The notes under the pieces: generated by a model | What the model was told of the DNA's origin: nothing | The model's input: only the letters and a program-made list of their open reading frames with translations | Database searches by the model: none | Part shown: piece by piece, positions 36,022 through 49,168 of the stretch | Numbering within the stretch: the first letter of the stretch is position 1 | Layout: each line of letters begins with the position of its first letter | Translations under genes and position numbers: made by a program | Source: Microbacterium sp. zg-B96 | GTDB lineage: Bacteria; Actinomycetota; Actinomycetes; Actinomycetales; Microbacteriaceae | Length of the DNA: 64,000 nt | Assembly: GCF_030246865.1 (NCBI RefSeq) | Contig: NZ_CP126738.1 | Coordinates: 558,001-622,000 of the forward strand | Reading direction: 5' to 3'

Positions 36022-37212
36022 TCAGCTCACCCGGTCGGCCAGCAGCGTCAGGCGCTTGCTGCCCACGCGGGTCATCAGCAGCGTGGCGGATGCCGCGCCC
36101 TTCAGTTTCAGCTTGGTGCGCAGCACCGCAGGGTCCACGTCCACGCCGCGCTTCTTGATCTCCAGCGTCCCGATGTCGCGTTCGCGCAGCGCCTTGGCGA
36201 GCGCCTTCACATCCGACGGCAGGCGTTCGCGCACCCGGAAGGTCGACACGAACGGGCTCGTCACGGCGGCGTCGCCGGTGAGGTAGGCGATGCCGGGGGC
36301 CAGCATGCCCGCCTCCAGCTGCCGGGCGGCGTCGCCGATGAGGCGTGCGCGGATCACCGCACCGTCGGGCTCGTGCACGAACGCGCCGAGCTCGCGCACA
36401 GGCTCGTCGGCGGCATCCGATGCCGCCGTCAGCTCGTGGGTGGTCTGTCCTCGGGTGACCAGGGCAGCACGGCGGATGCCGTCGCGGGCGAGGGCGCCGG
36501 TCCACACCACAAGCTCGATCGTGGCGCCGTCGACGCTGATCCACTGCGCTTCGGCGTGCTCGGGTAGTTCGGTGCGGTCAAAGGCCGGGCCCAGCTTGAT
36601 GCCGGCGGGCAGGCGCGTGGCGAGGTCGAAGACCCAGTCCAGCGGCGGTGACCACTCGCCGGCGCCGACCCGGGTGGTCTCGGTGTGCCCTGCCGTGCGC
36701 CGTGCGGGGTCGAGCCAGACCGCGTCGACCGTCGAGGTGTCGAACGCCTCGGCGGTGCCGTGGTGCACGTGCACCTGCTCACCGAACGGGGCCAGGTTGT
36801 AGGCGGCGATCGCGGCGGTGACCTCGTCGGCGTCCACGGCGTCGACCTCGATCCCCAGGGCCGCCAGCCCCAGGGCGTCGCCGCCGATCCCGCAGCCGAG
36901 ATCGGCGACCCGCGCGAAACCGGCATCGCGATACCGGCCAGCATGTCGCGCCGCCACAGACAGGCGGGTGGCCTGCTCCAGGCCCGCGCGGGTGAACAGC
37001 ATCCGGTCGGCGAAGTCACCGAACTTCGCCTGCGCCTTCACACGCAGCCGCGCCTGCCCGACCACCGCCGACACGAGGTCGGGGGAGTGACCGGCCGCGC
37101 GCAGCCGGGACACCGCAGCGGCGGCATCGGAGGTCGTGCGGATGCCGCCGGTCGCGTCCAGCAGCCGCAGCCCGTCGGGAGTGAGCAGCGCGGTCAGCTC
37201 GGCCAGATCCAT
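36022..37212 (-). CDS. SAM-dependent methyltransferase with THUMP-like domain
   Basis: Protein of 396 aa. The Rossmann methyltransferase core shows motif I VADLGCGIGGDALGLAALG and acidic VDAVDADEVTAAIAAYN; DAVWLDPARRTAG is the catalytic-loop equivalent. The C-terminal region (about 330-396, IGTLEIKKRGVDVDPAVLRTKLKLKG) is the THUMP-like extension common in actinobacterial members. N-terminal about 90 residues are helical. A nucleic-acid substrate is likely from the THUMP-like part, but no target is known. Confidence 0.82.
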   Translation of the reverse strand: MDLAELTALLTPDGLRLLDATGGIRTTSDAAAAVSRLRAAGHSPDLVSAVVGQARLRVKAQAKFGDFADRMLFTRAGLEQATRLSVAARHAGRYRDAGFARVADLGCGIGGDALGLAALGIEVDAVDADEVTAAIAAYNLAPFGEQVHVHHGTAEAFDTSTVDAVWLDPARRTAGHTETTRVGAGEWSPPLDWVFDLATRLPAGIKLGPAFDRTELPEHAEAQWISVDGATIELVVWTGALARDGIRRAALVTRGQTTHELTAASDAADEPVRELGAFVHEPDGAVIRARLIGDAARQLEAGMLAPGIAYLTGDAAVTSPFVSTFRVRERLPSDVKALAKALRERDIGTLEIKKRGVDVDPAVLRTKLKLKGAASATLLMTRVGSKRLTLLADRVS

Positions 37213-37345
37213 CCGTTCAGCCTACGTTCCCGCCCGAGCCCGGCAGCCCGCCCCCACCCCTCCCCCCTCCCCGACAGGGGGGACCCCGCAACCCCGGCCC
37301 GCAGAATCGGGAGTCATCCCCGATGTGCCGGTGGCGCCCCGCTCG

Positions 37346-37351
37346 TAGCGT
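37346..37351 (+). promoter_or_regulatory. Candidate -10 (TAGCGT) for the YNDNS-repeat genes
   Basis: TAGCGTT lies 50 bp before ATG 37402 in the 189-bp gap after the methyltransferase. The same heptamer occurs upstream of the related IniB-domain gene on the opposite strand (44166-44160). The gap is otherwise C/G-run rich (CCCCTCCCCGACAGGGGGG near 37258). Confidence 0.4.
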
Positions 37352-37401
37352 TCAGTCATCACCACACGTCGGGGATGCTCCCCGGGAAGAGGGAAACAGT
37401 C

Positions 37402-38307
37402 ATGGCATTCGACGACTACGACCTGAACGACGCGTTCAACACGCGCGTGCGGGATTCGTTCAACACCACCAACACGTCCACGACGACCGGTACCGCCGCG
37501 TTCGAGAACGTCGGCAACACCGACGCGTCGGTGGACGGCAGCGGCAACCTCGATCTCACCGTCACCGACTCGGGCAACACCGACTCCAACGACACCTGGA
37601 CCGACACCGACGTCGACGACTCGTACAACGACAACTCCGACAACTCCACCAACGACGACTCGGACAACTCCACGAACGACTCGTACAACGACGACTCGGA
37701 CAACTCGACGAACGACTCGTTCAACTCGTACACGGACAGCTCGACCAACGACAACTCGGTGCACGTCGGCGTGCGCAACTACAACACGTCGTTCGGGGAC
37801 GTGAGCATCACCGGCGGCGGCGGAGGCGGCACCGGCGGGGGCGACGTCTGGGTCAACAACTCGAGCACGATCGTCGACCAGTCGACCAACTCCGCAGGCG
37901 GTGGCTTCTCCGCGTTCGACGGCGACGACGGCGGTGGTGGCGGCGGGGGCAACAGCGCGGTGGTCGCCAGCGGCGCCGACTCCATCGCCGCGGGCGGCGA
38001 CGTGGACTACGACGTGGACATCGACAACTCCACGAACATCTACGCCGGAGGCGACGTCAACCTCGACAACACCACGACCGTCGACATGGTGTCGGATTCG
38101 TACAACACGTGGGAGTCCACCGCGACGTGGACCGACAACTCCACGTACACCGACGTCGACGACTCGTACAACGACAACTCGGAGAGCTACACGGCGACCG
38201 GTTCGTTCAACACCACGACCGATGAGTCGTTCGCTGCCGAGATCAACGTGGATGTCGACGCGATCGTCGACAGCTCCGACTCCTCGATCGGCGACGCCGC
38301 CGGCTGA
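37402..38307 (+). CDS. Asn/Asp/Ser/Thr-rich repeat protein (IniB-related), copy 1
   Basis: Extremely biased protein of 301 aa with no Lys and no Cys and only three Arg. It starts MAFDDYDLNDAFNTRVRDS, then repeats built on DSYNDNSDNSTND (residues about 72-118), the block SVHVGVRNYNTSFGDV, a glycine run, GGDVWVNNSSTIVDQS, a second glycine run, NSAVVASGADSIAAGGD and further DSYNDNSE repeats. The TIVDQS and AVVASG-SIAAGGD-N-STN blocks recur in the IniB-domain protein at 43398-44123. No signal peptide or membrane helix. It is expected to be elongated, acidic and disordered or beta-solenoid. Start is preceded by AGAGGGAAA. First gene of the dynamin-like cluster; function unknown. Confidence 0.8.
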   Translation: MAFDDYDLNDAFNTRVRDSFNTTNTSTTTGTAAFENVGNTDASVDGSGNLDLTVTDSGNTDSNDTWTDTDVDDSYNDNSDNSTNDDSDNSTNDSYNDDSDNSTNDSFNSYTDSSTNDNSVHVGVRNYNTSFGDVSITGGGGGGTGGGDVWVNNSSTIVDQSTNSAGGGFSAFDGDDGGGGGGGNSAVVASGADSIAAGGDVDYDVDIDNSTNIYAGGDVNLDNTTTVDMVSDSYNTWESTATWTDNSTYTDVDDSYNDNSESYTATGSFNTTTDESFAAEINVDVDAIVDSSDSSIGDAAG

Positions 38308-38314
38308 TGCCGTT

Positions 38315-38341
38315 CGGGCCGGCCGCCCCGCGGCCGGCCCG
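38315..38341 (+). terminator. Intercistronic hairpin between the two repeat-protein genes
   Basis: CGGGCCGGCCGC/GCGGCCGGCCCG, 12-bp perfect stem with a CCC loop, eight bases after the stop at 38307. No T-run; it may attenuate rather than end transcription, leaving more mRNA for copy 1 than for downstream genes. Confidence 0.55.
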
Positions 38342-38370
38342 GTCCCTAGCTTCGGAAAGGAAAGCCCATC

Positions 38371-39282
38371 ATGGCCTTCGACGACTACACCCTGGACGAC
38401 GCGTTCAACACACGCGTGCGCGACTCCGGGAACACCACCAACAACGCGACGAACACCCTCGGGGTGGACCTGAACAACGTCGCCAACACCGACGAGTCGG
38501 TCACCGACAGCGGCAACATCACCGCCGACGTCTCCGGATCGTTCAACCGCGACTCCAACGACACGGCCACGTTCACCGACGTTCGCGACTCGTACAACGA
38601 CAACTCCGACAACTCCGAGAACGACTGGTCGGACAACTCCACGAACGACTCGTTCAACGACAGCTCGGACAACTCCACGAACGGCTCGTACAACACCTAC
38701 ACCGACGAGTCGACCAACGACGACTCGGTGCACGTCGGGGTGCGCAACTACAACACCTCCTTCGGGGATGTCACCCTCGGCGGCGGTGGTGGCGGCGGCG
38801 ATGTCTGGGTCAACAACTCCAGCACGATCGTCGACCAGTCGTTCAACTCAGCGAGCTCCGGCGGTGGCGGTTTCGCCGCAGCATCCGACGACGGTGGCGG
38901 GGGTGGCGGCGGGTACGACAACAGCGCCGTGGTGGCCTCGGGCAGCGGATCGATCGCCGCCGGCGGCGACGCGAACGTGTCCCTGTCCGAGGACTCGTCG
39001 TTCAACGTCGACGCCGAGGGGGACGTCAACATCGGCAACGAGACGACCGTCAACAGTGTCATCGACTCGTACAACACCGCGACGGTGACCTCGACGGCGA
39101 CCGACAACTCCACCGACACGGACGTCTCCGACTCGTACAACGACAACTCCGAGACGTGGACGGCCGACAACTCGTTCACCGAGGAGCTGACCTCGAGTTC
39201 CGAGGAGACCTGGAATGTGGATGTCGACGTGATCTGGGACAGCACCTCGTCATCCATCGACGGTGGCGACGTCACCCTTTGA
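38371..39282 (+). CDS. Asn/Asp/Ser/Thr-rich repeat protein (IniB-related), copy 2
   Basis: Paralogue of the 37402-38307 product, 303 aa, again free of Lys and Cys. It shares MAFDDYxLxDAFNTRVRDS, DSYNDNSDNS repeats, SVHVGVRNYNTSFGDV, GGDVWVNNSSTIVDQS and NSAVVASGSGSIAAGGD, but differs in the spacers and in the last 80 residues, which are richer in Glu and Trp. GGAAAGGAAAG provides a strong ribosome site. The tandem duplication with conserved blocks and divergent spacers suggests selection on the blocks. Followed by a strong terminator-like hairpin before the GTPase pair. Confidence 0.8.
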   Translation: MAFDDYTLDDAFNTRVRDSGNTTNNATNTLGVDLNNVANTDESVTDSGNITADVSGSFNRDSNDTATFTDVRDSYNDNSDNSENDWSDNSTNDSFNDSSDNSTNGSYNTYTDESTNDDSVHVGVRNYNTSFGDVTLGGGGGGGDVWVNNSSTIVDQSFNSASSGGGGFAAASDDGGGGGGGYDNSAVVASGSGSIAAGGDANVSLSEDSSFNVDAEGDVNIGNETTVNSVIDSYNTATVTSTATDNSTDTDVSDSYNDNSETWTADNSFTEELTSSSEETWNVDVDVIWDSTSSSIDGGDVTL

Positions 39283-39331
39283 CCGGATGACCTTTCGCCG
39301 CCGGGCGGCGGCGCCGTGAGGCGCGAACCGT

Positions 39332-39373
39332 CGCCGAGAACCCGCCCCGCATCCGCGGAGCGGGTTCTCGGCG
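39332..39373 (+). terminator. 14-bp terminator-like hairpin
   Basis: CGCCGAGAACCCGC/GCGGGTTCTCGGCG with a 14-nt loop, 50 bp after the copy-2 stop and 47 bp before the first GTPase gene. It separates the highly biased repeat genes from the GTPase operon. Confidence 0.6.
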
Positions 39374-39419
39374 CGTTCCGCGGTTGGACCGGCGACCGTC
39401 ACCTGCGAAAGGCCCGTCG

Positions 39420-41318
39420 ATGACAATTCCCGCCACCGGACCGGCATTGCCCGCCACGCCGCCGCCGGATGCCCCCGACGACCTCGACGACGAGGCAGTC
39501 ACCGCTGTGATCCTGCCGCTCATCGACCGCGCCGCGAGCTATTCGCAGGCGCTCGGCCGGCCGGATCTGGTGACCAGGCTCGGGCAGACCAAGGACCGGA
39601 TGCTCGACCCGAACATCCGGGTGATCGTCGTCGGCCAGTTCAAGCAGGGAAAGAGCAAGCTCGTCAACGCGCTCGTCAACGCCCCCGCCTGCCCCGTCGA
39701 CGACGACGTGGCCACGAGCGTGCCGACCTCCGTCGGCTATGCCGAGGAGCCCTCGGCGGTCGTCCTGGTGCGCCGCGACGACGGCCCGGACCCGGCGATC
39801 GAACGGGTGCCGGTGCCGCTGGACGACCTCGCCGAATACGTCTCGGAGAACGGCAGCCCCGACATCGGGAAGGACATCGTCGGGGCGGAGGTGCTGCTGC
39901 CGCGCGAGATCCTCAAGGGCGGCCTGCGCGTCATCGACTCACCAGGCGTCGGCGGGCTGGAATCCACCCGGTCGCTGAGCACGCTCGCCGCGCTGTCGAC
40001 GGCGCACGCCGTGCTGCTGGTCTCGGATGCCTCGCAGGAGTACACCGAGCCCGAGATGCAGTTCCTGCGCCACGCGATGCGCATCTCTCCCAGCGTCGCG
40101 GCGGTGCTGTCCAAGACCGACATGTACCCGTCGTGGCGGCAGATCGAGGACATCGACCGCGGTCACCTCGGCGACGTCGGCACGGTGCCGCTGTTCGCCG
40201 TCTCCAGCGACCTGCGCATGCTCGCCGCGGACCAGCAGGACCGCTCGCTCAACGACGAATCCGGCTTCCCGGCGCTCGTGGCCCATCTGCGGCGCGACGT
40301 GCTGGGCCGGGCCGAGGCGCTGCGCCGCCGCGTGGCGATCCACGAGCTGCTGTCGGTGACCGAGCAACTGGCGATGGCGCTGCGCACCGAACTGTCGGCG
40401 CTGGAGCACCCCGAGGACACCCCGCGCATGATCGCGCGGCTCGAAGAGGCCAAGTCCCGCGCCGACGAGTTCCGCAGCCGGTCCTCCCGGTGGCAGGTGA
40501 CCCTCAGCGACGGCATCGGCGATCTCATGGCCGACACCGAACACGACCTGCGCGACCGCTTGCGCAAGGTCCAGCGCGATGCCGAGGCATCCATCGACGA
40601 GGGTGACCCCGGCCCCATCTGGGACCAGATCGCGCAGTGGCTGGACGTGCGGGTCAACGCCGCGGTGGCGGAGACGTTCGTGTGGACCGACGAGCGGTCG
40701 CAGTGGCTGGCCGGGCGGGTGGCGGATGCCTTCATCACGGGGGAGTCGTCGATCCCGCTCATTGACGTCGGGCGCACCGAAGGGGTGCTCGATCCGGTCG
40801 AGGACCTCGCGGACCTCGCCGAAGGGCGCCTGAGCGCGGCGGAGAAGATCTACATCGGCGTGCGGGGCTCCTACGGCGGTGTGCTGATGGTGGGGCTGGC
40901 CACGAGCCTCATCGGGCTGTCGCTGATCAACCCGCTGTCGCTGCTGGCCGGTGTCCTGGTGGGACGCCGGGCGTTCCGGGAGGACATGACCTCGCGCCTG
41001 ACCCGCCGGCAGATGGAGGCCAAGAGCCTGGTGCGCAAGCACATCGACGAGGTGGTGTTCCAGGTCGGCAAGCAGCTCAAGGACCGCCTCCGCCTGGTGC
41101 AGCGGGTCTCCCGCGACCACTTCGGCAGCATCGCCGACGAATTGCACCGGTCGCTGTCGGAGTCGGTGCTGGTGGCCAAGCAGGCCGCCGCCAGTTACAC
41201 CGCCGGCCGCGATGAGCGCATCGCCCAGTTGCGGCTGCGGCTGTCGCGGATCGAGCAGCTGCGCGCGCAGATCCGCGAGCTCCCGATGCCCGAGCACCCC
41301 GACCAGGTCGGCGCATGA
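39420..41318 (+). CDS. Dynamin-like GTPase, IniA-like
   Basis: Bacterial dynamin-family GTPase of 632 aa. G1 is VVGQFKQGKSKLVNAL (residues about 70-85), G3 is VIDSPGVGG (about 168-176) and G4 is LSKTD (about 229-233). A helical stalk follows, with a hydrophobic paddle (GGVLMVGLATSLIGLSLINPLSLLAGVLVG, about 483-512) that could insert into membrane. Mycobacterial IniA is a 640 aa dynamin-like protein with this layout, and the next gene is IniC-sized, so the pair matches iniA-iniC order. ATG 39420 is preceded by GAAAGG. Proposed role: membrane remodelling or repair under envelope stress. Confidence 0.87.
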   Translation: MTIPATGPALPATPPPDAPDDLDDEAVTAVILPLIDRAASYSQALGRPDLVTRLGQTKDRMLDPNIRVIVVGQFKQGKSKLVNALVNAPACPVDDDVATSVPTSVGYAEEPSAVVLVRRDDGPDPAIERVPVPLDDLAEYVSENGSPDIGKDIVGAEVLLPREILKGGLRVIDSPGVGGLESTRSLSTLAALSTAHAVLLVSDASQEYTEPEMQFLRHAMRISPSVAAVLSKTDMYPSWRQIEDIDRGHLGDVGTVPLFAVSSDLRMLAADQQDRSLNDESGFPALVAHLRRDVLGRAEALRRRVAIHELLSVTEQLAMALRTELSALEHPEDTPRMIARLEEAKSRADEFRSRSSRWQVTLSDGIGDLMADTEHDLRDRLRKVQRDAEASIDEGDPGPIWDQIAQWLDVRVNAAVAETFVWTDERSQWLAGRVADAFITGESSIPLIDVGRTEGVLDPVEDLADLAEGRLSAAEKIYIGVRGSYGGVLMVGLATSLIGLSLINPLSLLAGVLVGRRAFREDMTSRLTRRQMEAKSLVRKHIDEVVFQVGKQLKDRLRLVQRVSRDHFGSIADELHRSLSESVLVAKQAAASYTAGRDERIAQLRLRLSRIEQLRAQIRELPMPEHPDQVGA

Positions 41319-42826
41319 GGCGGGTGGGCATCGGCGAGATCGCCGGTGTGGTCTCGCAGGCGCGCGACCTGTACGCCGACGACCCCGCCGCGATCGAATT
41401 GCTCGACGCATACGATCGGCGGCTGAACGAGCCCCTGCGCCTCGCGGTCGCCGGCGTCGTCAAGGCGGGGAAATCCACCCTGCTCAACGCCCTCATCGGC
41501 GAGCAGGTGGCGCCGACGGATGCGGGGGAATGCACGAAGCTGGTGGTCTGGTACCGGTACTCCCTCACTCCGCGGGTGACGGTGCATCTGGCCGATGGGC
41601 GCACCGAGCGGCTGCCGGTGCGCCGCAGCGACGGCGCCCTGGAACTGGACCTGGGCTCGATCGACATCGACGAGGTCGGCTGGATCGACGTCGCCTGGCC
41701 GTCGGAGCACCTGCGCACCACGGTGCTGATCGACACCCCGGGCATCGCGTCACTGTCGGCGGCGACGTCGCTGCGCACGACCCGGTTCCTCACCCCCGAC
41801 CACCGGCCATCCGACGCCGACGCGATCATCTATCTGCTGCGCCACATCCACGCCTCCGACGTGGCGTTCCTGGAGTCCTTCCGCGACACCGTGGCCGGCT
41901 CGTCCCACACCGTGAACGCGGTGGGGCTGCTCTCCCGCGCCGACGAGATCGGATCGGGCCGCATCGACTCGCTCATCTCGGCAGCTCGTATCGCCGAGCG
42001 CTACCGCCGCGACGGGGAACTGCGTGCCCTGACCCTCGGGGTGATCCCGGTGGCGGGCCTGCTGGCCGAGGGAGCTCGGACACTGCGGGAGAGCGAGTTC
42101 ATCGCGTTCCGCGCGCTCGCCGCCCTCACCCGCGAGCAGCGGGAGCGATTGTTCGTATCCGTCGACCGCTTCACCCGCGCCTCCGCCGATACCGACCTGA
42201 GCGTGTCGGTGCGCCAGCGTCTGCTGGCCCGGTTCGGCTTGTTCGGGGTGCGCCTCGGGGTCGCTCTGGTGCGCGGCGGTGCGCACACCTCGTCGGAGCT
42301 GGCCGAGCGGATGATCGCGCAGAGCGGCCTGATCGACGTGCAGCGGTTCGTCGCCGACCAGTTCCGCTCCCGGGTCGCCGCTCTCAAGGCCCGCACCGTG
42401 CTGGACGGGGTCACGGACCTGCTGCGCGAGAAGCCGCGGGCCGGCGCCACCGGTGTGCGCATCGCGATCGAGCGGGTGTCGCTCACGGCACACGACCTGC
42501 GCGAACTCGCGCTGCTGGCCCAGCTGCGCACGTCGGTGTCGGCGCTGCAGCCGGAGGACGAAGCCGAGGCGGAGCGGATCGTGGGCGGGGCGGGGGACTC
42601 GGCCTCCGCACGCTTGGGGCTGTCCGACCTGGCGACGAAGGCCGACGTGCGGGAGGCGACAGCGCAGCGGCTGGCGCACTGGCGGATGCTGGAGCAGTCG
42701 CCGCTGAACGACCGCACGACGACGCAGACGTGCCGGGTGGTCGCGCGCAGCCTCGAGGCGATCGCTTCAGAGGTCGGCGCCGCTCACCCCGGGGGCAGCG
42801 GTTCGGACATCATGCCGTCGCGCTGA
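41315..42826 (+). CDS. Dynamin-like GTPase, IniC-like
   Basis: Second dynamin-like GTPase, 503 aa (mycobacterial IniC is of similar length). G1 is VAGVVKAGKSTLLNALIG (about 45-62), the G2 Thr is in TDAGECTKLV, G3 is LIDTPGIASL (about 137-146) and G4 is LLSRADE (about 204-210). It lacks the long hydrophobic paddle of its partner, so the two may form a heteromer with one membrane-inserting member. ATGA overlap gives tight coupling. The last 60 bp overlap the end of a convergent gene. Confidence 0.86.
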   Translation: MRRVGIGEIAGVVSQARDLYADDPAAIELLDAYDRRLNEPLRLAVAGVVKAGKSTLLNALIGEQVAPTDAGECTKLVVWYRYSLTPRVTVHLADGRTERLPVRRSDGALELDLGSIDIDEVGWIDVAWPSEHLRTTVLIDTPGIASLSAATSLRTTRFLTPDHRPSDADAIIYLLRHIHASDVAFLESFRDTVAGSSHTVNAVGLLSRADEIGSGRIDSLISAARIAERYRRDGELRALTLGVIPVAGLLAEGARTLRESEFIAFRALAALTREQRERLFVSVDRFTRASADTDLSVSVRQRLLARFGLFGVRLGVALVRGGAHTSSELAERMIAQSGLIDVQRFVADQFRSRVAALKARTVLDGVTDLLREKPRAGATGVRIAIERVSLTAHDLRELALLAQLRTSVSALQPEDEAEAERIVGGAGDSASARLGLSDLATKADVREATAQRLAHWRMLEQSPLNDRTTTQTCRVVARSLEAIASEVGAAHPGGSGSDIMPSR

Positions 42827-43369
42827 CCACTTCAGCGCCGGCGGCAGCACGCTGAACCCCAGCGCGAGCAGGGCCAGCGCCACCTGCAGAGCCAGGATGC
42901 GGGTCAGCGGCAGCCCGCGTTCGCCCACGGCGACGAGTTCGCGGATGCCGATCAGCGCGATCCCCAGCAGCACCACCGACCCGAACTGCCACCAGCGCGC
43001 CTTGGGGCGGCGGTTGTTGAACGAGACCAGCGACGTCACCTGCACCAGCAGCACGACGGCGAGGATGCCGAACGCGGTCCAGTAGATGATGTCGGCTGCC
43101 GTCGTGTAGGTCTCCTCTGCCCGGGTGGCATCCACCGCCTTGACAGCCTCGACCATCGCCGGCAGTTGCGTCTCGCGGATGATGAACAGGTACACCACCG
43201 CCACCGCCCCGGTCAGCATGCTCAGCACCCAGCCCAGCTGGGCCGCGCGGATGCTCACCGGCGGGGGGAGCTTGACGATGACGGGGGCGGCCTGCTTGCC
43301 CGCCAGGCTCGGCCGGGCGGGGGCCTGCGGCGCACCTTCGACCCTGGGGCGACGAGCTTCTGGCGCCAC
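42767..43369 (-). CDS. Four-helix membrane protein of the ini-like locus
   Basis: Unrecognised protein of 200 aa: a Pro/Ala-rich N-terminus (1-40), then four membrane segments (about 45-65 LGWVLSMLTGAVAVVYLFI, 92-113 IIYWTAFGILAVVLLVQVTSL, 128-145 FGSVVLLGIALIGIREL, 157-177 ILALQVALALLALGFSVLPP). GTG 43369 is the first plausible start, but the frame is open upstream into the IniB-domain gene and the ribosome site is weak, so the true start is uncertain. It follows that gene by 28 bp. Convergent 60-bp overlap with the IniC-like gene. Confidence 0.62.
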   Translation of the reverse strand: MAPEARRPRVEGAPQAPARPSLAGKQAAPVIVKLPPPVSIRAAQLGWVLSMLTGAVAVVYLFIIRETQLPAMVEAVKAVDATRAEETYTTAADIIYWTAFGILAVVLLVQVTSLVSFNNRRPKARWWQFGSVVLLGIALIGIRELVAVGERGLPLTRILALQVALALLALGFSVLPPALKWSARRHDVRTAAPGVSGADL

Positions 43370-43397
43370 CGGCGCCTGCGGACGAGCGCGTTCGACG

Positions 43398-44123
43398 TCA
43401 GAAATCGTCGCTCCCGGTCTCGTCGATGACGGTGTCGGTCGATTCGTATACGGTCGTGGACTCGGTGTCGACCGCGGTCTCCTGGTAGGTCGTGGCGGAG
43501 TCGTTGTACGAGCTTTCCGCCGTCGTGGTGGTCGACGAATCGTTGCCGGAGCCTGTCGTGGTCGTGGCGGTCGAGCTGTCGGTGGTCGTCGACGTGTCGG
43601 TCTGCTGGTTGTTCGACCCCGCGGTCACCGTCGTCGTGGTGTCGTTGCCCATGTTGACGTTCTCGCCGGCGTTGACGTTGGTCGAGTTGTCCTCGGTCTG
43701 GTCGATGTCCACATCGTCGCCCGCGGCGATCGATCCGTCTCCCGAACCCACGACGGCCTCGTTGTCGAAGGTCTGGGTCACATCCCCCGCGGCCCAGATG
43801 TTCTGGTTGACCGATTGGTCCACGATGGTGTCGCGGTCGTCGATGGTGAGGTTGTTGACGATGTTCTGGATCTCGCGCACCACCGGGTTCACCGACGGGC
43901 TCGGCGGGTCCGGGTTGGGGTCGGCGGCGACGACGACCGCCGGGCGTTCGGCGATGACGGGGGCCACGGCGCAGACATCTTCCGCCCGCACCTGCGACAG
44001 CCCGCGACTGCCCAGCGCCGCAGCCGGGTCGGCTTCGAACTCCTCGACGGCTTCCGGGTCGCGCAACAGGCTCAGGATGAATTCGATCAACGCGTCGGCG
44101 ACGGTGGCGACGGTGATGCTCAT
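43398..44123 (-). CDS. IniB N-terminal-domain protein with YND/STN repeats
   Basis: Protein of 241 aa. Residues about 10-60 (ALIEFILSLLRDPEAVEEFEADPAAALGSRGLSQV) match the IniB N-terminal domain of mycobacteria (pattern LIxFIxxLxRxxxAxxxFxxxPxxAL). The rest is Asn/Asp/Ser/Thr-rich, with TIVDQSVNQNIWAAGDV, NEAVVGSGDGSIAAGDD, STNVNAGENVNMGNDTTTTV and a C-terminal SSYNDSATTY. Those blocks are shared with the two proteins at 37402 and 38371, which links both halves of the locus. No signal peptide. GAGGAG lies before ATG 44123. Confidence 0.84.
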   Translation of the reverse strand: MSITVATVADALIEFILSLLRDPEAVEEFEADPAAALGSRGLSQVRAEDVCAVAPVIAERPAVVVAADPNPDPPSPSVNPVVREIQNIVNNLTIDDRDTIVDQSVNQNIWAAGDVTQTFDNEAVVGSGDGSIAAGDDVDIDQTEDNSTNVNAGENVNMGNDTTTTVTAGSNNQQTDTSTTTDSSTATTTTGSGNDSSTTTTAESSYNDSATTYQETAVDTESTTVYESTDTVIDETGSDDF

Positions 44124-44159
44124 GGTGTGCTCCTCTGCAACCGAGATGGATCCGATTTC

Positions 44160-44166
44160 AACGCTA
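44160..44166 (-). promoter_or_regulatory. Candidate -10 (TAGCGTT) of the IniB-domain gene
   Basis: TAGCGTT on the minus strand, 37 bp before the ATG at 44123, is identical to the heptamer 50 bp before the copy-1 repeat gene on the other strand. Both follow a GGCGCCC element. A shared promoter or activator site, for instance for the LuxR-type regulator next door, is possible. Confidence 0.4.
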
Positions 44167-44220
44167 GGTCTTCAGGTCGGGCGCCGCGTCGGGGCTGCGC
44201 CCCCCATTCCACCGCGCCCA

Positions 44221-46758
44221 CTAGGGGACCGCCCCCGGGGGCAGGGGGGATGGGCTGTCGCCGGGGGCTGCCAGCCCGCCGCGCAGCTTGTCGAGCAGGT
44301 CCGAGCGCGACGTGGCGCCCAGCCGTTGGCGGATGCGGGCGATGTGGTGCTCGGCGGTGCGGGGCGAGATGAAGATCGCCGCGCCGATCTCGGCGTAGGT
44401 CTTGCCCTGCAGCACGAGCTGGGCGACATCCTGCTCGCGCGCGCTCAGCGCCGGCCCGGTCGCGGCAGCGCCCTCGTCGGTCGTCGGCTCGGCGGCGGTG
44501 TCTTCGCGGGGGTGCAGCTGCCGCGCGCAGGCCAGCAGCCGGGCCGCCACCCGGCGGTCATCGGTGCGCCCCGCGCCGTGGCCGGCCAGGCGTGCCCCGT
44601 CCCAGGCGAGACCGATCGAGGCGAGCTGTGAGGCGGCAGACTCGACCGCGTCCGGATCGACGCGACCGGCCAGCACATCCGTCCACACCCGCCCGGCCTG
44701 TGCCATGGTCGCGGCCGTGCGGCTGCGCGCGGCCGCCGACAGCAGCCTGCGGGCATGGGGTTTGAGCGACTCGGGATCGTTGGAGAGGATGCCGCGCTGC
44801 ACGCCAGCCCAGTACAGGGCGGTGCTCCACAGGGCGGGGGATCCGAGATGGTCGGTCAGCGCCACCGCGCGGTCGAAATGATCCGCGATGCGGTCGCCCT
44901 CACCCAGTCGTGCGGCGGTGACGGTGAGCTCGGTCAGCGGCAGCAGGATGAACAGATCGAACCGGACGCGCAGCAGCGACTCGCGCGCGCCGCGCCATGC
45001 GGTGGCCAGTGCCGCGGCGTCGCCGAACCGCCGGGCCACCCCCACCGCCACGGCATCCGACACGATCCGGTCGCGGGTGGACAACTCCCGCACCGCTGCC
45101 CGCACCCGCGCGCGGGCGGCCTCCGCCTCGTGCGGGCGCTCCCGCTGCATCGCCACCCATGCGCTCCACAACTGCAGCCTGTCGTGGGCCCACGCCCCGC
45201 CGTGTCCGCCGCGGACGGCGTCGGCGAGCACCGTGGCAGCCACATCCGGTTCGCCGAGCTGGAGCGCCGCGGTGGCCGCGATCACCGCCGGCAACTCGGG
45301 TACGGCTTCGGCCGACCCCGACGCGGTGTGCATCTCGGCGGCGCGGACGAGATCGCCCAGCCCCGCGGAGCCGTCGCCGTCGAGGGTGGACTGCAGGCCC
45401 GCCACGAGCAGCTCGGATGCCACGTCGAGCGTGGAGGGGACCCGCTGCGGCGTCGGCATCGCGCTTTCGCGTGCGGCTTCACCGTCGCCGACGGCGAAGG
45501 CCACCGCGACCGATGCCGCGGCGGTGCGCGGCGCGGTGGGCGGGTGTGCGCGGTGGATGGCGTGGCTGCGCTCGGTGAGCCCGCGTGCCGACCACAGGGC
45601 TGCGGCGAGGTCGGTCGCCTCGGCGGGGGCCGGGGTGCCGGCCTGCGCCGCGCGATCCAGTTCGACGCCGACGGCGTCCAGGCTGCCCAGCGCCCACGCG
45701 GCGCGTGCCCGCCCGAGCGCGGCTGTCGCGGCATCCGCCCCGGCGTCGGCGGCCAGCGCGAACAGCGCCAGCGCGCGCTCGGGCTGCTCGTCGATGAGGG
45801 AGTCGGCCCGTCGCAGCAGCCGATCGGCCAGCCGAGGCTCCCGCACGCGTGCGGCGACCGTGTCGGCGACGGTGTGCTCAGGGGCGAGCGAGAGCAGATG
45901 CAGCAGCCGGTCCGGTGAGACCGTGGCCTGCACCGCTTCGCGCACAACCGGTGCCGGCGTCCCGTCCATCAGCAGCAGCCCCTCCGCGTGCGCGGCGGCC
46001 ACGACGGTGTCGGCCGGATCCTCCGGCCACCCGGTGGGCGCACCTTCCAGCAAGCAGATCAGCTCGACCCCATCGCGCACCTCGGGATCGATCGTGCGCA
46101 GCCGGTGGGCGATGATCGCCGACAGGGCGTCGGAGACCGCGCGCAGGCTCTCCTGCTCGTCGGCGAGGGCGACTTCGTCGTCAAGATGCAGGGCCTCGAC
46201 AACGAGCCACGGCACGCCGCCGCACAGCGTCAGCAGGGCCTCCACGCGCCCGGGCGGAAGGGCGCGCTGGTGGGCGGCGAGCCACGCGGCGACATCGTGC
46301 GCGGAGAGCCGGTCCAGCACGATCGTCGGCCGCTCCTGCTGCAGCCGGCGCACCAGGAGCTGCAGGGGAGCGCTGCGCGGCCACGGCCGGCAGGCGACGA
46401 CCACCTCGCAGGCGGGATCGTCCAGGCGGTGCAGCACTGCCTCGAGTGCCTCGGCATCGAGGCGGTGCGCGTCGTCGACGAGGAGCACGTCGTCCGGCTG
46501 CGCCGCGCTGAGATCAGCCGCATCGGTGACGCGGGTGATGGCGCGCCCCCGCGCCTGCAGGGCGCGGCGCACGTGGCGTAGCACGCTGGACTTTCCGGAG
46601 CCGGCGGCGCCAGTGACGACGGCCCGGGCCGGGGCGTCGTCCGTCGTCAGCGCCGCGATGTGACTGTGCGCGAGGCGGGACCACAGGGCCGGTCTTTCCG
46701 TGGCCGGCTCGGCACGGATCACCGAGAGCGGCGGGGACGAAATAGAAGCCAATGACAT
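44221..46758 (-). CDS. Large ATPase-LuxR transcriptional regulator, IniR-like
   Basis: STAND/LAL-type regulator of 845 aa. Walker A VVTGAAGSGKSSVL (about 47-60) and Walker B DDVLLVDDAHRLD (about 90-102) start the NTPase; DRLSAHDVAAWLAAHQ belongs to the helical winged part. A long TPR-like middle (about 300-760) follows. The C-terminal LuxR helix-turn-helix is LSAREQDVAQLVLQGKTYAEIGAAIFISPRTAEHHIARIRQRLGATSRSDLL. Mycobacterial IniR, regulator of iniBAC, has the same layout and similar length. ATG 46758 has GGAG four bases upstream; ATG 46794 overlaps the Hsp70-like stop region less plausibly. Probably activates the neighbouring promoters in response to a bound ligand or partner. Confidence 0.84.
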   Translation of the reverse strand: MSLASISSPPLSVIRAEPATERPALWSRLAHSHIAALTTDDAPARAVVTGAAGSGKSSVLRHVRRALQARGRAITRVTDAADLSAAQPDDVLLVDDAHRLDAEALEAVLHRLDDPACEVVVACRPWPRSAPLQLLVRRLQQERPTIVLDRLSAHDVAAWLAAHQRALPPGRVEALLTLCGGVPWLVVEALHLDDEVALADEQESLRAVSDALSAIIAHRLRTIDPEVRDGVELICLLEGAPTGWPEDPADTVVAAAHAEGLLLMDGTPAPVVREAVQATVSPDRLLHLLSLAPEHTVADTVAARVREPRLADRLLRRADSLIDEQPERALALFALAADAGADAATAALGRARAAWALGSLDAVGVELDRAAQAGTPAPAEATDLAAALWSARGLTERSHAIHRAHPPTAPRTAAASVAVAFAVGDGEAARESAMPTPQRVPSTLDVASELLVAGLQSTLDGDGSAGLGDLVRAAEMHTASGSAEAVPELPAVIAATAALQLGEPDVAATVLADAVRGGHGGAWAHDRLQLWSAWVAMQRERPHEAEAARARVRAAVRELSTRDRIVSDAVAVGVARRFGDAAALATAWRGARESLLRVRFDLFILLPLTELTVTAARLGEGDRIADHFDRAVALTDHLGSPALWSTALYWAGVQRGILSNDPESLKPHARRLLSAAARSRTAATMAQAGRVWTDVLAGRVDPDAVESAASQLASIGLAWDGARLAGHGAGRTDDRRVAARLLACARQLHPREDTAAEPTTDEGAAATGPALSAREQDVAQLVLQGKTYAEIGAAIFISPRTAEHHIARIRQRLGATSRSDLLDKLRGGLAAPGDSPSPLPPGAVP

Positions 46759-46798
46759 GGTTCTCCTGGACGGGCGCGCACCGGGGGCGGGCACCCGA

Positions 46799-48640
46799 TC
46801 AGACGGTGTACTCGGGCGGACTCGGCTCGGACAGCGGGCCGGGGTCCGCGGGGGTCGGTGATTCGGGTGTGGGGTCCGACGTCTCGGGGGCGGGGTCGGT
46901 GGGCTCCGGTTCCGGTTCCGGATCGGTCGTGGGCTCCGGTTCGGGCTCGGGGTCAGGCTCGGGCTCGGGGTCGGGCTCGGGCTCAGGTTCGGGATCCGGC
47001 TCCGTCGTCGGTTCCGGCTCGGGAGAGGGGTCGGGGGCGACGACAGGCGCCGCCGGGTTCGGCGCGGGGGTGGGCCTGCCCGGCTCGGCGGACGCGTCGG
47101 CCGAGCCGGGGCGCGCCGCGCTGCGCGGCGCAGCCGGGTTCGCGGTGGCAGGTTCGCGTGGTGTCGCCCTGCCGGGGGCGCGCCGCTCGGACGGACCAGG
47201 GGCGTCTTCGGTCGCGGGCGGCGCCGGAGCCGTCACCAGCGGGGCGGCCTCCGGATCGGAGGTCGGCAGGGCCTGCGGCTGCGCGCCGTCCCACGCCCAC
47301 GGCAGCATCGCCGAGGCGCGCTGAGCGTCGTCGTCGCCCAGTGCGGTGTCGACCGGCGCTCCGCCCAGCGCTGATGCGCTCAGGGTGATCATCGTCGCCG
47401 CGAGCGCGACCACGCCGGTGCCCGAGAGTGCTCCGGCACCGATGCGACGGAACCAGGATCGTGGCGGTGCTGCGGCAGCGGTGGCATCCGCGGCGTCGCC
47501 GGCGGCCCCGTCCGGCAGCGCGGGCGCATCGTCGAACTCGGCCACGGCGCGCGGTGCCGCCGCCAGACGCTGTGCGGCGAGAGCGCCGGCCGCGCCCAGG
47601 GCGATGATCGCCTTCGGGTCGGCATCCGTGGCGATGGGCAGGTCGAATCGCGCGGACAGCCGCTGCGCGATGCGCGGGATGCGGGAGGATCCGCCGGTGA
47701 GCAGGATCGCATCGACGCGATCGGCGGGAACAGCGGCCGATTCGAGCGCGTCGGCCAGCGTCTCCGCGGTGCGGTCGATCGCCTCTTCGATCATCGCCTC
47801 GAACTCGTCGCGGGTGAGGCGCACCGTGGTCTCGCGCTCTCCCAGCAGCACCGGGATAGACGCATCGCTGTCGAAGGACAGTGCCTCCTTGGCATCCACG
47901 CATTCGCGTCGCAGCACCGCCACGCCCATCCGCGCGCCGCGATCGACGGCGAGGGCTGCGGCGGAAAAGCCCGCCACACCGAGCGTGTGACGCAGCACCG
48001 CGTCATCGAAGTCGGCACCGCCGAGATCGCGGATGCCGGTGGGCTCCCCGGCCGGCACCAGGGTGTCGTCGGCGTCCTTACGGAGGATGACGGCATCGAA
48101 CGTGCCGCCGCCGAGGTCGTAGACGGCGAGGGCATGCCCCGGTTCCAGCGGGTTGATCATCTCGTAGCGGCGGGCCGCGGCCTCTGGCTCGCTGACGATG
48201 GCGACTTCCCCGAGTCCGGCTCGCGCCAGCGCCCCGGCAATCAGGTCGGTGCGGTAGCCGCCCCAGGTGACCGGCACCGTGACCGCGACGGCATCGGGGG
48301 AGTGGCCCTCGCGCTCGCGGATCGTGTCCACCACCCACGCCACCATCCGGGCGAACAGCTGCTCGGCGGTGAAGCTCTGGTCTCCCGCGACGATCGGCAC
48401 ATCATCGCCCACCCGACGCTTGAACTCCCGGATCAGACGGTCCGGCGCGGTGAGGCCCCGGCGCTCGGCGGCATCCCCCCACAGGAGCTCGCCCGAGAGT
48501 GCGAAGGCGGAACTCGGGACGCTGTCGGCGTGACGTCCGAGAGCGAACGGAGTCGTCGAGATCTCCCCATTCGATCCCACACGTGCAACGGCTGCAGCTG
48601 TCCTACTGGTTCCGACATCGACGGCGATGACGTACCCCAC
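46799..48640 (-). CDS. Hsp70-like ATPase with transmembrane helix and Pro-Glu tail
   Basis: Protein of 613 aa. Residues 1-370 form an Hsp70 actin-like ATPase: VGYVIAVDVGTSRTAAAVAR (phosphate 1), VTVPVTWGGYRTDLI, VSEPEAAARRYE, AVYDLGGGTFDAVIL (phosphate 2) and LTGGSSRIPRIAQRL (adenosine). The peptide-binding domain of DnaK is absent. A linker leads to one membrane helix (about 402-425, GTGVVALAATMITLSASALGG), then an extracytoplasmic Pro/Ala/Thr/Glu-rich segment ending in PEPEPDPEP repeats and PPEYTV. It is therefore a membrane ATPase, not a chaperone of usual form. GTG 48640 follows GGGAAGGGA. It precedes the LuxR-type gene by 40 bp, probably in one transcript. Confidence 0.84.
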   Translation of the reverse strand: MGYVIAVDVGTSRTAAAVARVGSNGEISTTPFALGRHADSVPSSAFALSGELLWGDAAERRGLTAPDRLIREFKRRVGDDVPIVAGDQSFTAEQLFARMVAWVVDTIREREGHSPDAVAVTVPVTWGGYRTDLIAGALARAGLGEVAIVSEPEAAARRYEMINPLEPGHALAVYDLGGGTFDAVILRKDADDTLVPAGEPTGIRDLGGADFDDAVLRHTLGVAGFSAAALAVDRGARMGVAVLRRECVDAKEALSFDSDASIPVLLGERETTVRLTRDEFEAMIEEAIDRTAETLADALESAAVPADRVDAILLTGGSSRIPRIAQRLSARFDLPIATDADPKAIIALGAAGALAAQRLAAAPRAVAEFDDAPALPDGAAGDAADATAAAAPPRSWFRRIGAGALSGTGVVALAATMITLSASALGGAPVDTALGDDDAQRASAMLPWAWDGAQPQALPTSDPEAAPLVTAPAPPATEDAPGPSERRAPGRATPREPATANPAAPRSAARPGSADASAEPGRPTPAPNPAAPVVAPDPSPEPEPTTEPDPEPEPEPDPEPEPDPEPEPEPTTDPEPEPEPTDPAPETSDPTPESPTPADPGPLSEPSPPEYTV

Positions 48641-48768: not shown

Positions 48769-48795
48769 CTGGCACTCGCGTTGCGGGAGTGCCAG
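48769..48795 (+). promoter_or_regulatory. CIRCE operator 1 (HrcA)
   Basis: CTGGCACTC-N9-GAGTGCCAG is a perfect 9-bp inverted repeat with nine-base spacer, matching CIRCE (TTAGCACTC-N9-GAGTGCTAA) at the GCACTC/GAGTGC core. It surrounds the -35 element of the groES promoter. Confidence 0.85.
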
Positions 48796-48809
48796 CGTCC
48801 CCGTACACT
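48781..48809 (+). promoter_or_regulatory. groES promoter
   Basis: TTGCGG (48781-48786) and TACACT (48804-48809) with a 17-nt spacer. The -35 lies in the spacer of CIRCE 1 and CIRCE 2 begins five bases after the -10, so HrcA on either site would block RNA polymerase. Confidence 0.75.
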
Positions 48810-48813
48810 GGCG

Positions 48814-48840
48814 TTAGCACTCTCACTGGGTGTGTGCTAA
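48814..48840 (+). promoter_or_regulatory. CIRCE operator 2 (HrcA)
   Basis: TTAGCACTC-N9-GTGTGCTAA matches the CIRCE consensus in 17 of 18 arm positions. It lies across the expected transcription start. Confidence 0.88.
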
Positions 48841-48871: not shown

Positions 48872-49168
48872 GTGTCGGTTTCCATCAAGCCGCTCGAGGA
48901 CCGCATCGTCATCAAGCAGGTCGAGGCCGAGCAGACCACCGCCAGCGGGCTGGTCATTCCCGACACTGCGAAGGAGAAGCCCCAGGAGGGCGAGGTCGTC
49001 GCAGTGGGCCCCGGTCGCATCGACGACAACGGCAACCGCATCCCGCTGGATATCGCCGTGGGCGACCGCGTGATCTACAGCAAGTACGGCGGGACCGAGG
49101 TCAAGTTCGGTGGCGACGAGCTGCTGGTGCTCTCGGCGCGCGACGTGCTGGCGGTCGTCGTCCGCTGA
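48872..49168 (+). CDS. groES: Co-chaperonin GroES
   Basis: Full-length 98 aa co-chaperonin forming the heptameric lid of Gro[48 protein letters not shown] covers the mobile loop, and [28 protein letters not shown] the core strands. GTG start after AAGAAAGAGG. No groEL follows; a terminator comes 17 bp after the stop, so groEL must be elsewhere, as in several actinobacteria. Control by two CIRCE elements is visible upstream. Confidence 0.97.

Follow-up and report, generated by a model that had tools for sequence, protein, structure and literature searches.

A predicted iniBAC-like envelope-stress module carried as a cassette next to groES in Microbacterium sp. zg-B96

Ethambutol and isoniazid are reported to induce the mycobacterial iniBAC promoter more strongly and specifically than any other; its activator is the regulator IniR, which binds ahead of the genes and in part resembles MalT, and RNA data point to IniB being in excess (excerpts of Boot et al., PMC5760070). 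Mycobacterial IniA attaches to acidic lipids and carries out membrane fission, according to extracts of PMC6715688. Here we describe an 11 kb locus of eight genes in Microbacterium sp. zg-B96, located at 37402–48640 of a 64,000-nucleotide window (558001–622000 of the 3.41-Mb single-contig genome; coordinates below are those of the window). Judged by their sequences, two of its genes encode GTPases of the IniA and IniC types, one an IniB_N protein, two further ones the IniB body alone, and the remaining three an IniR-like regulator, an Hsp70-like membrane ATPase and a membrane protein with four helices (TM4); we regard the locus as a predicted iniBAC-like envelope-stress module that is carried as a cassette. 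Position 37402 is the start of rep1 and 48640 one possible start of the Hsp70-like gene. The genes rep1, rep2, iniA and iniC lie on the plus strand, and hsp70, iniR, iniB and TM4, in this order of transcription, on the minus strand, as follows:

37309–37351, plus strand: putative promoter of rep1 (rep1-rep2-iniA-iniC unit), with the box CCCCGATG at 37318–37325 and a −10-like TAGCGT at 37346–37351, spacing 20 bases
37402–38307, plus strand: rep1, acidic repeat protein of 301 residues, IniB body without IniB_N
38371–39282, plus strand: rep2, 303 residues, paralogue of rep1 (67% identity)
39420–41318, plus strand: iniA, IniA-type dynamin-like GTPase of 632 residues, assigned by its match to PDB 6j72 and by the tree
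41315–42826, plus strand: iniC, IniC-type dynamin-like GTPase of 503 residues, Dynamin_N match, IniC clade
42767–43369, minus strand: TM4, four-helix membrane protein of at most 200 residues with four hydrophobic segments, directly downstream of iniB
43398–44123, minus strand: iniB, IniB-type protein of 241 residues, IniB_NTERM match, helical N-domain and acidic low-complexity body
44161–44203, minus strand: putative iniB promoter, with the box CCCCGACGC at 44186–44194 and a −10-like TAGCGT at 44161–44166
44221–46758, minus strand: iniR, IniR-like STAND ATPase/LuxR regulator of 845 residues, NF038181 match below cut-off
46799–48640, minus strand: hsp70, membrane Hsp70-like ATPase of 613 residues, with ATPase domain, one transmembrane segment and Pro/Glu tail

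A first-pass annotation made from the letters alone had placed the same eight genes in this span, with sizes that proved right, and had called them an iniBAC-like locus with an IniR-type regulator; the match to IniA in the PDB, the IniC placement in a tree and the NCBIfam matches to IniB_N and IniR bore this out. As in the mycobacterial iniR–iniB*–iniBAC locus, IniA, IniC and IniB_N proteins are found together with an IniR-type regulator, and M. smegmatis also has a dnaK-like gene adjoining iniR, to which one sentence is given in Boot et al. (PMC5760070, excerpts). In contrast to the iniB-iniA-iniC order on a single strand that marks mycobacterial iniBAC, iniB in the window lies opposite iniA instead of upstream of it on the same strand, with rep1-rep2 occupying that slot; TM4 is extra, the regulator scores below the IniR equivalog cut-off, and hsp70 is placed upstream of iniR, whereas the dnaK-like gene of M. 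smegmatis is downstream of it (PMC5760070, excerpts). At their 3′ ends the convergent TM4 and iniC genes overlap.

The 632-residue protein matched IniA (PDB 6j72) with an E-value of 9.6e-131 over residues 29–614, the next PDB match being the bacterial dynamin-like protein 2j68 at 5.7e-11, and it is classed as the IniA-type GTPase of an iniBAC/IniR locus. It aligns in this range with M. smegmatis IniA (PDB 6j72/6j73), and its hydrophobic stretch at 497–515 falls, by alignment offset, near the membrane segment predicted for IniA (extracts of PMC6715688); it differs in being only 39–42% identical to the five aligned IniA proteins of family f7, and its activity is a prediction. The 503-residue protein matched 6j72 and 2j68 in the GTPase region only. 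A quick tree built from 53 GTPase regions placed it within a 23-row IniC clade (Shimodaira–Hasegawa-like approximate likelihood ratio test support, SH-aLRT, 99), which also holds the gene accompanying iniA in five f7 genomes, three of which (G043, G003, G070) have IniR above the NCBI cut-off. The start of iniC overlaps the stop of iniA, the genes sharing four bases, and an IniC-type GTPase thus directly follows iniA. The tree rows nearest to the window IniA were the Micrococcales IniA of Microbacterium, Phycicoccus, Agromyces and Arthrobacter, with f7 IniA in a wider group. Four rows without a P-loop by the pattern used had been dropped, long branches were flagged, nine ‘other’ rows include ini gene copies from overlapping loci, and the IniA rows formed no single clade against these ‘other’ rows; we rely on nothing in this tree beyond the IniC clade and the rows close to those of the window. 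Because the window IniC is placed in the IniC clade and the IniA beside other IniA, a grouping with unrelated dynamin families, which the first-pass annotation had named as the outcome that would speak against it, was not observed. One more Dynamin_N match was present elsewhere in the genome.

The 845-residue regulator showed AAA and GerE matches in Pfam and matched the IniR profile NF038181 with 367.6 bits over profile positions 5–825 of 827, the equivalog cut-off being 750 bits. By this profile match it is a nearly full-length IniR homologue, which we do not call an IniR equivalog. Like MalT and other STAND transcription regulators, it has an ATPase-type N-terminal part, a long middle region and a LuxR-type DNA-binding end. 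The Hsp70-like protein matched positions 104–369 of the 599 positions of the Hsp70 profile, and what we take to be its phosphate motifs were recognized by inspection. It shares the ATPase domain with DnaK, but a single hydrophobic membrane segment at about residue 410 and a Glu-rich tail of about 180 residues, 30% of them proline, stand in place of the substrate-binding part, for which no profile in Pfam or NCBIfam gave a match; the NCBIfam DnaK models reached 123.6 and 120.8 bits against cut-offs of 648 and 822.55, and the protein thus corresponds to the ATPase part of DnaK only. This layout of ATPase domain, membrane segment and tail recurs in the named loci described below, except in L055 and L098, where the hsp70 frames are in pieces. 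In the window hsp70 and iniR are separated by 4 bases or by 40, according to which start is chosen.

Conservation of the gene set was followed in three samples. In an even draw of 196 genomes of the class, IniA (E up to 1e-20) was present in 33, IniR (E up to 1e-15) in 18 and IniB_N (own cut-off) in 17, and all IniR and all IniB_N genomes fell inside the 33 with IniA; IniB_N accompanied IniR in 17 of the 18, the exception being G007. At E up to 0.001, IniB_N was found in 20 genomes, the three weak extras (G056, G095, G133) lying outside the 33. Within the genus itself IniA was patchy, occurring in three of six sampled genomes, zg-B96 included. The second sample comprised 32 regions around the IniA matches of the class-draw genomes, and the third 80 named loci, chosen as the best among 484 confirmed IniA matches and not at random; 56 of the 80, in which iniA is flanked by 8.5 kb or more on either side, were taken as complete. 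Loci were labelled with profiles grown from the window proteins. Weak iniR labels (28–62 bits; L034, L035, L040, L041) were counted as absent, and since rep and IniB share their body, the two labels can swap in the truncated loci L055, L079, L092 and L109, none of which is among the 56.

The class-draw regions carried iniC in 29 cases, hsp70 in 23, iniR in 18 (four weak), iniB in 15 and TM4 in only three, whereas in the complete named loci iniC, iniR and hsp70 were present in 56 of 56, IniB in 55 and TM4 in 51. In all 56, moreover, hsp70 directly preceded iniR in the same orientation, with at most 1.3 kb between the ORF ends. The neighbourhood comparison across Microbacteriaceae and other actinobacteria that had been proposed as a check on the locus therefore revealed co-conservation, and not the lack of it that would have counted against the reading. 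The usual order in the complete named loci, seen in Arthrobacter and its kin, Agromyces and Georgenia, is hsp70-iniR-iniB-iniA-iniC with TM4 facing iniC, and iniB is on the iniA strand in 38 of the 56. The window order with reversed iniB was found in 17 (14 Microbacterium loci, the metagenome bins L056 and L066, and Phycicoccus L107); rep proteins were present in all 17 of these and in none of the 38 others. Of the genes that the first-pass annotation had taken for additions to the mycobacterial set, the two repeat proteins alone are additions of the lineage. The membrane Hsp70 and TM4 are not local additions, as they belong to the usual set of the named, mostly Micrococcales, relatives; TM4 is rare outside the named sample.

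The module is flanked by a gene for a THUMP-like methyltransferase (36022–37212) and by groES (48872–49168). In six of six Microbacteriaceae genomes without IniA, three of the genus and three of other members of the family, these two genes are direct neighbours, and the site between them is an insertion or loss site of the module.

The 241-residue protein matched IniB_NTERM (NF038175) with 64.3 bits (cut-off 40), which identifies the IniB_N domain, and the named matches obtained in a search with it were mostly from Microbacterium. AlphaFold2 (AF2) placed helices within residues 5–58, ten-residue blocks scoring 93–95 for residues 11–60 and below 50 for residues 123–241; rep2 scored low throughout, with a mean predicted local distance difference test value (pLDDT) of 41.7. 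Neither rep1 nor rep2 gave a Pfam or NCBIfam match or showed an IniB domain. The second half of the rep proteins aligned, however, with the IniB body over 151 columns (probability 99.96%, E 8.4e-39). Among 90 hits of a rep2 search the named organisms were Microbacterium or an unclassified actinobacterium, and four of the hits carried Pfam PF27122, a domain that also marks listed IniB proteins. Mean Lys+Arg content was 1.0% for IniB bodies (n = 36) and 1.4% for rep proteins (n = 38). From these alignments we read IniB and rep as one family with a small helical head and a variable body, of which Microbacterium would also make a headless form, and the AF2 models suggest that IniB-type bodies are probably disordered. 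A beta-solenoid fold, expected from the AGGDVN-type repeats, was dropped in view of the low AF2 confidence for the IniB body and rep2, and a Foldseek search of the IniB model against PDB yielded a single, uninformative match (E 5.9). In further genomes different low-complexity bodies follow IniB_N, in open frames of up to 1593 residues; Gly/Leu/Asn-rich IniB_N frames of 1000–1600 residues lie away from the iniA-adjacent iniB at L124:3154–7932, L125:3504–8171 and L127:5618–8602.

With up to one mismatch allowed, 27 of 30 Microbacterium-type loci had the pattern CCCCGATGC upstream of iniB, against 3.1 expected by shuffling, as did 34 of 43 other named loci (3.4 expected) and seven of 17 distant ones (1.3 expected), often as a dyad with GGGG on the left; thirteen iniB genes whose start could not be set were left out of the count. 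Upstream of the first rep gene, CCCCGATGYSG with at most one mismatch occurred in 22 of 25 loci against 1.3 expected and a maximum of 3 in 50 shuffles, in a count that left out nine loci with less than 150 upstream bases and for which the YSG end of the pattern was chosen after viewing the sequences; an earlier count that included second copies and doubtful starts gave 17 of 28 against 4.35. Control upstreams were near or below chance overall, with 9/87 for hsp70 (shuffle mean 9.1), 8/78 for iniR (13.5), 0/71 for iniA (8.0), 12/74 for iniC (8.8) and 6/65 for TM4 (8.3). In the window both CCCCGAYG boxes, that of iniB and that of rep1, end 20 bases ahead of TAGCGT, and this CCCC/GGGG-type box presumably resembles the MalT box. 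As the CCCCGATG box is common to the rep and iniB promoters, which is the best evidence on this point, the rep genes probably belong to one regulon with iniB. The IniR homologue is the candidate binder of the box by analogy with the binding of IniR upstream of iniBAC in mycobacteria (PMC5760070, excerpts).

The explanation that we prefer, with a probability of roughly 45%, is that the membrane Hsp70 gates the IniR homologue, which would in turn switch on the IniB-type proteins and the dynamin pair. MalK is an example of a protein that restrains a STAND regulator, MalT; the inhibitor proposed here would differ in being a membrane Hsp70 and not MalK or MalY. MalT is also sequestered by MalY (excerpt of PMC10427625), and after these models the Hsp70-like protein, spanning the membrane with its Pro/Glu tail outside and reading the state of wall or membrane, would hold or release the IniR homologue in the cytoplasm. 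Once freed, the regulator would bind the CCCCGATG boxes and turn on both units, and the acidic, Lys/Arg-poor and probably disordered IniB and rep proteins would be produced in quantity. IniB might then dock by its helical N-domain while the acidic bodies crowd the inner face of the membrane or form a scaffold on it, and there IniA and IniC would assemble and reshape or seal the membrane. The identified parts, the nesting of IniR and IniB_N within the IniA genomes, the invariable hsp70-iniR linkage of the complete named loci, the recurrent layout of the Hsp70-like protein, the box, the body and the low Lys+Arg content shared by iniB and rep, and the roles described for IniR and IniA in mycobacteria all argue for this. 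Neither the hsp70-iniR pairing outside mycobacteria nor the box nor the kinship between rep and the IniB body was found in the open-licence PMC literature, preprints excluded, which does not establish absence from print. The comparison provides handles for further work, namely a membrane Hsp70 upstream of iniR, a likely operator box and an IniB body with and without the IniB domain, and a membrane Hsp70 as regular partner of a regulator and two GTPases makes a testable idea of how envelope damage is sensed.

Several observations weigh against a gate of this kind. Among 14 class-draw loci with strong iniR, hsp70 was directly upstream of it in seven (L012 and L013 of the genus and five of f7) and not in the other seven; in five f16 loci (L014–L017, L019) it was located at the iniB end, next to and facing away from iniB and far from iniR. 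Hence hsp70 belongs to the set, but it regularly adjoins iniR only in the named sample and part of f7. It is, furthermore, linked to iniA/iniC in genomes without IniR, and the first partner of Hsp70 may therefore be the GTPases. The box had been spotted by eye in the same upstreams before it was counted, and the loose pattern GGGN6CCCCGAYG gave 35 matches in the zg-B96 genome against 12 in a reversed control (including 37309–37325, 37367–37383, 44187–44203 and one inside the hsp70 gene); not being specific alone, it was rejected as a definition of the regulon. The disorder ascribed to IniB-type bodies is deduced from AF2 models of low confidence built on shallow alignments, and a conserved core within the IniB/rep body hints at some fold. 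Finally, a trehalose response cannot be assumed for a regulator that scores below the equivalog cut-off.

The linkage of hsp70 to the GTPases is what a different role of the ATPase would lead one to expect. Hsc70 acts in eukaryotic coat removal, and the Hsp70-like ATPase could similarly act on the effectors, loading, unloading or disassembling membrane-associated IniA/IniC or IniB-type assemblies, with its adjacency to iniR being mere operon architecture. This is the idea of the first-pass annotation, that the ATPase controls assembly, and we rate its probability only somewhat below that of the gate. In a Pfam count on 13 genomes, which included nine of the 15 IniA genomes without IniR, an Hsp70 match lay at most 10 kb from iniA in seven of these nine, although each of the 13 genomes had only 3 to 12 Hsp70 matches. 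The f17 family has iniA-iniC-hsp70 but neither IniR nor IniB_N, the f16 arrangement keeps hsp70 at the iniB end and away from iniR, and a stretch of about 23 kb in G012 contains three Hsp70-like genes together with three IniB_N matches, of which one is below cut-off. Such a role is, on the other hand, not readily reconciled with hsp70 standing directly upstream of iniR in every complete named locus, nor with a protein in which nothing matched the substrate-binding part of Hsp70; and of the 13 loci fetched from IniR-less genomes, seven carried an hsp70 label and six, some of them near contig ends, did not. Hsp70-like genes occur on both sides of iniR in L020, L023 and L024 (f7), and G043 has a DnaK match of full length no more than about 10 kb from iniC. 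In the IniR-less iniA-iniC-hsp70 loci L030 (7602–13813) and L032, low-complexity frames were observed beside hsp70 and downstream, which perhaps stand in for IniB.

A phage-defence island, in which the STAND ATPase and the dynamin-like pair act on infected membranes as a variable cassette, is highly unlikely in our view. The patchy presence in the genus and the position between genes that adjoin elsewhere would suit it, and PADLOC, run on four of the eight proteins, scored 50.2 bits for LeoBC and 38.2 bits for LeoA on IniA. These matches to the GTPases are partial, however, and far weaker than that to IniA, those on the regulator are weak, and no full Leo-type or other defence set could be recognized in the PADLOC scan of these four proteins; the gene set is nearly constant over the 56 complete named loci, and the shared promoter box and the relation to IniR point to a regulated stress operon instead. 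Least probable of all is that IniB and rep are exported wall or surface polymers and that the remaining genes serve their export or anchoring, for although the long low-complexity bodies that follow IniB_N would suit a matrix polymer and an older comparison was made with a glycine-rich plant wall protein, no signal peptide was evident at the N-termini by inspection, no predictor having been run, and no secretion gene was recognized among the eight genes with Pfam and NCBIfam.

Extended beyond this locus, a gate by the membrane Hsp70 would mean that a membrane-spanning Hsp70-like ATPase gating a STAND (NLR-like) transcription factor is what lets Actinobacteria detect damage to their envelope, with an acidic disordered IniB coat and a dynamin pair at the inner membrane as output, and that iniBAC of Mycobacterium tuberculosis is a reduced version; we regard this generalization as rather unlikely. 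If true, it would be a bacterial counterpart of chaperone-gated NLR proteins.

Between hsp70 and groES two palindromes of the controlling inverted repeat of chaperone expression (CIRCE) type are located at 48769 and 48814, 45 bases apart (48769–48840). Double CIRCE-type elements, some of them only variants, were detected in six of six relatives without the locus (L162–L167), and in L073–L123 none was found except in the two Microbacterium loci L086 and L101. As the palindromes are kept where the locus is missing and were not found in most loci checked, they belong to groES, and CIRCE control of hsp70 was rejected. In L054 and L064 the module lies on the other side of groES.

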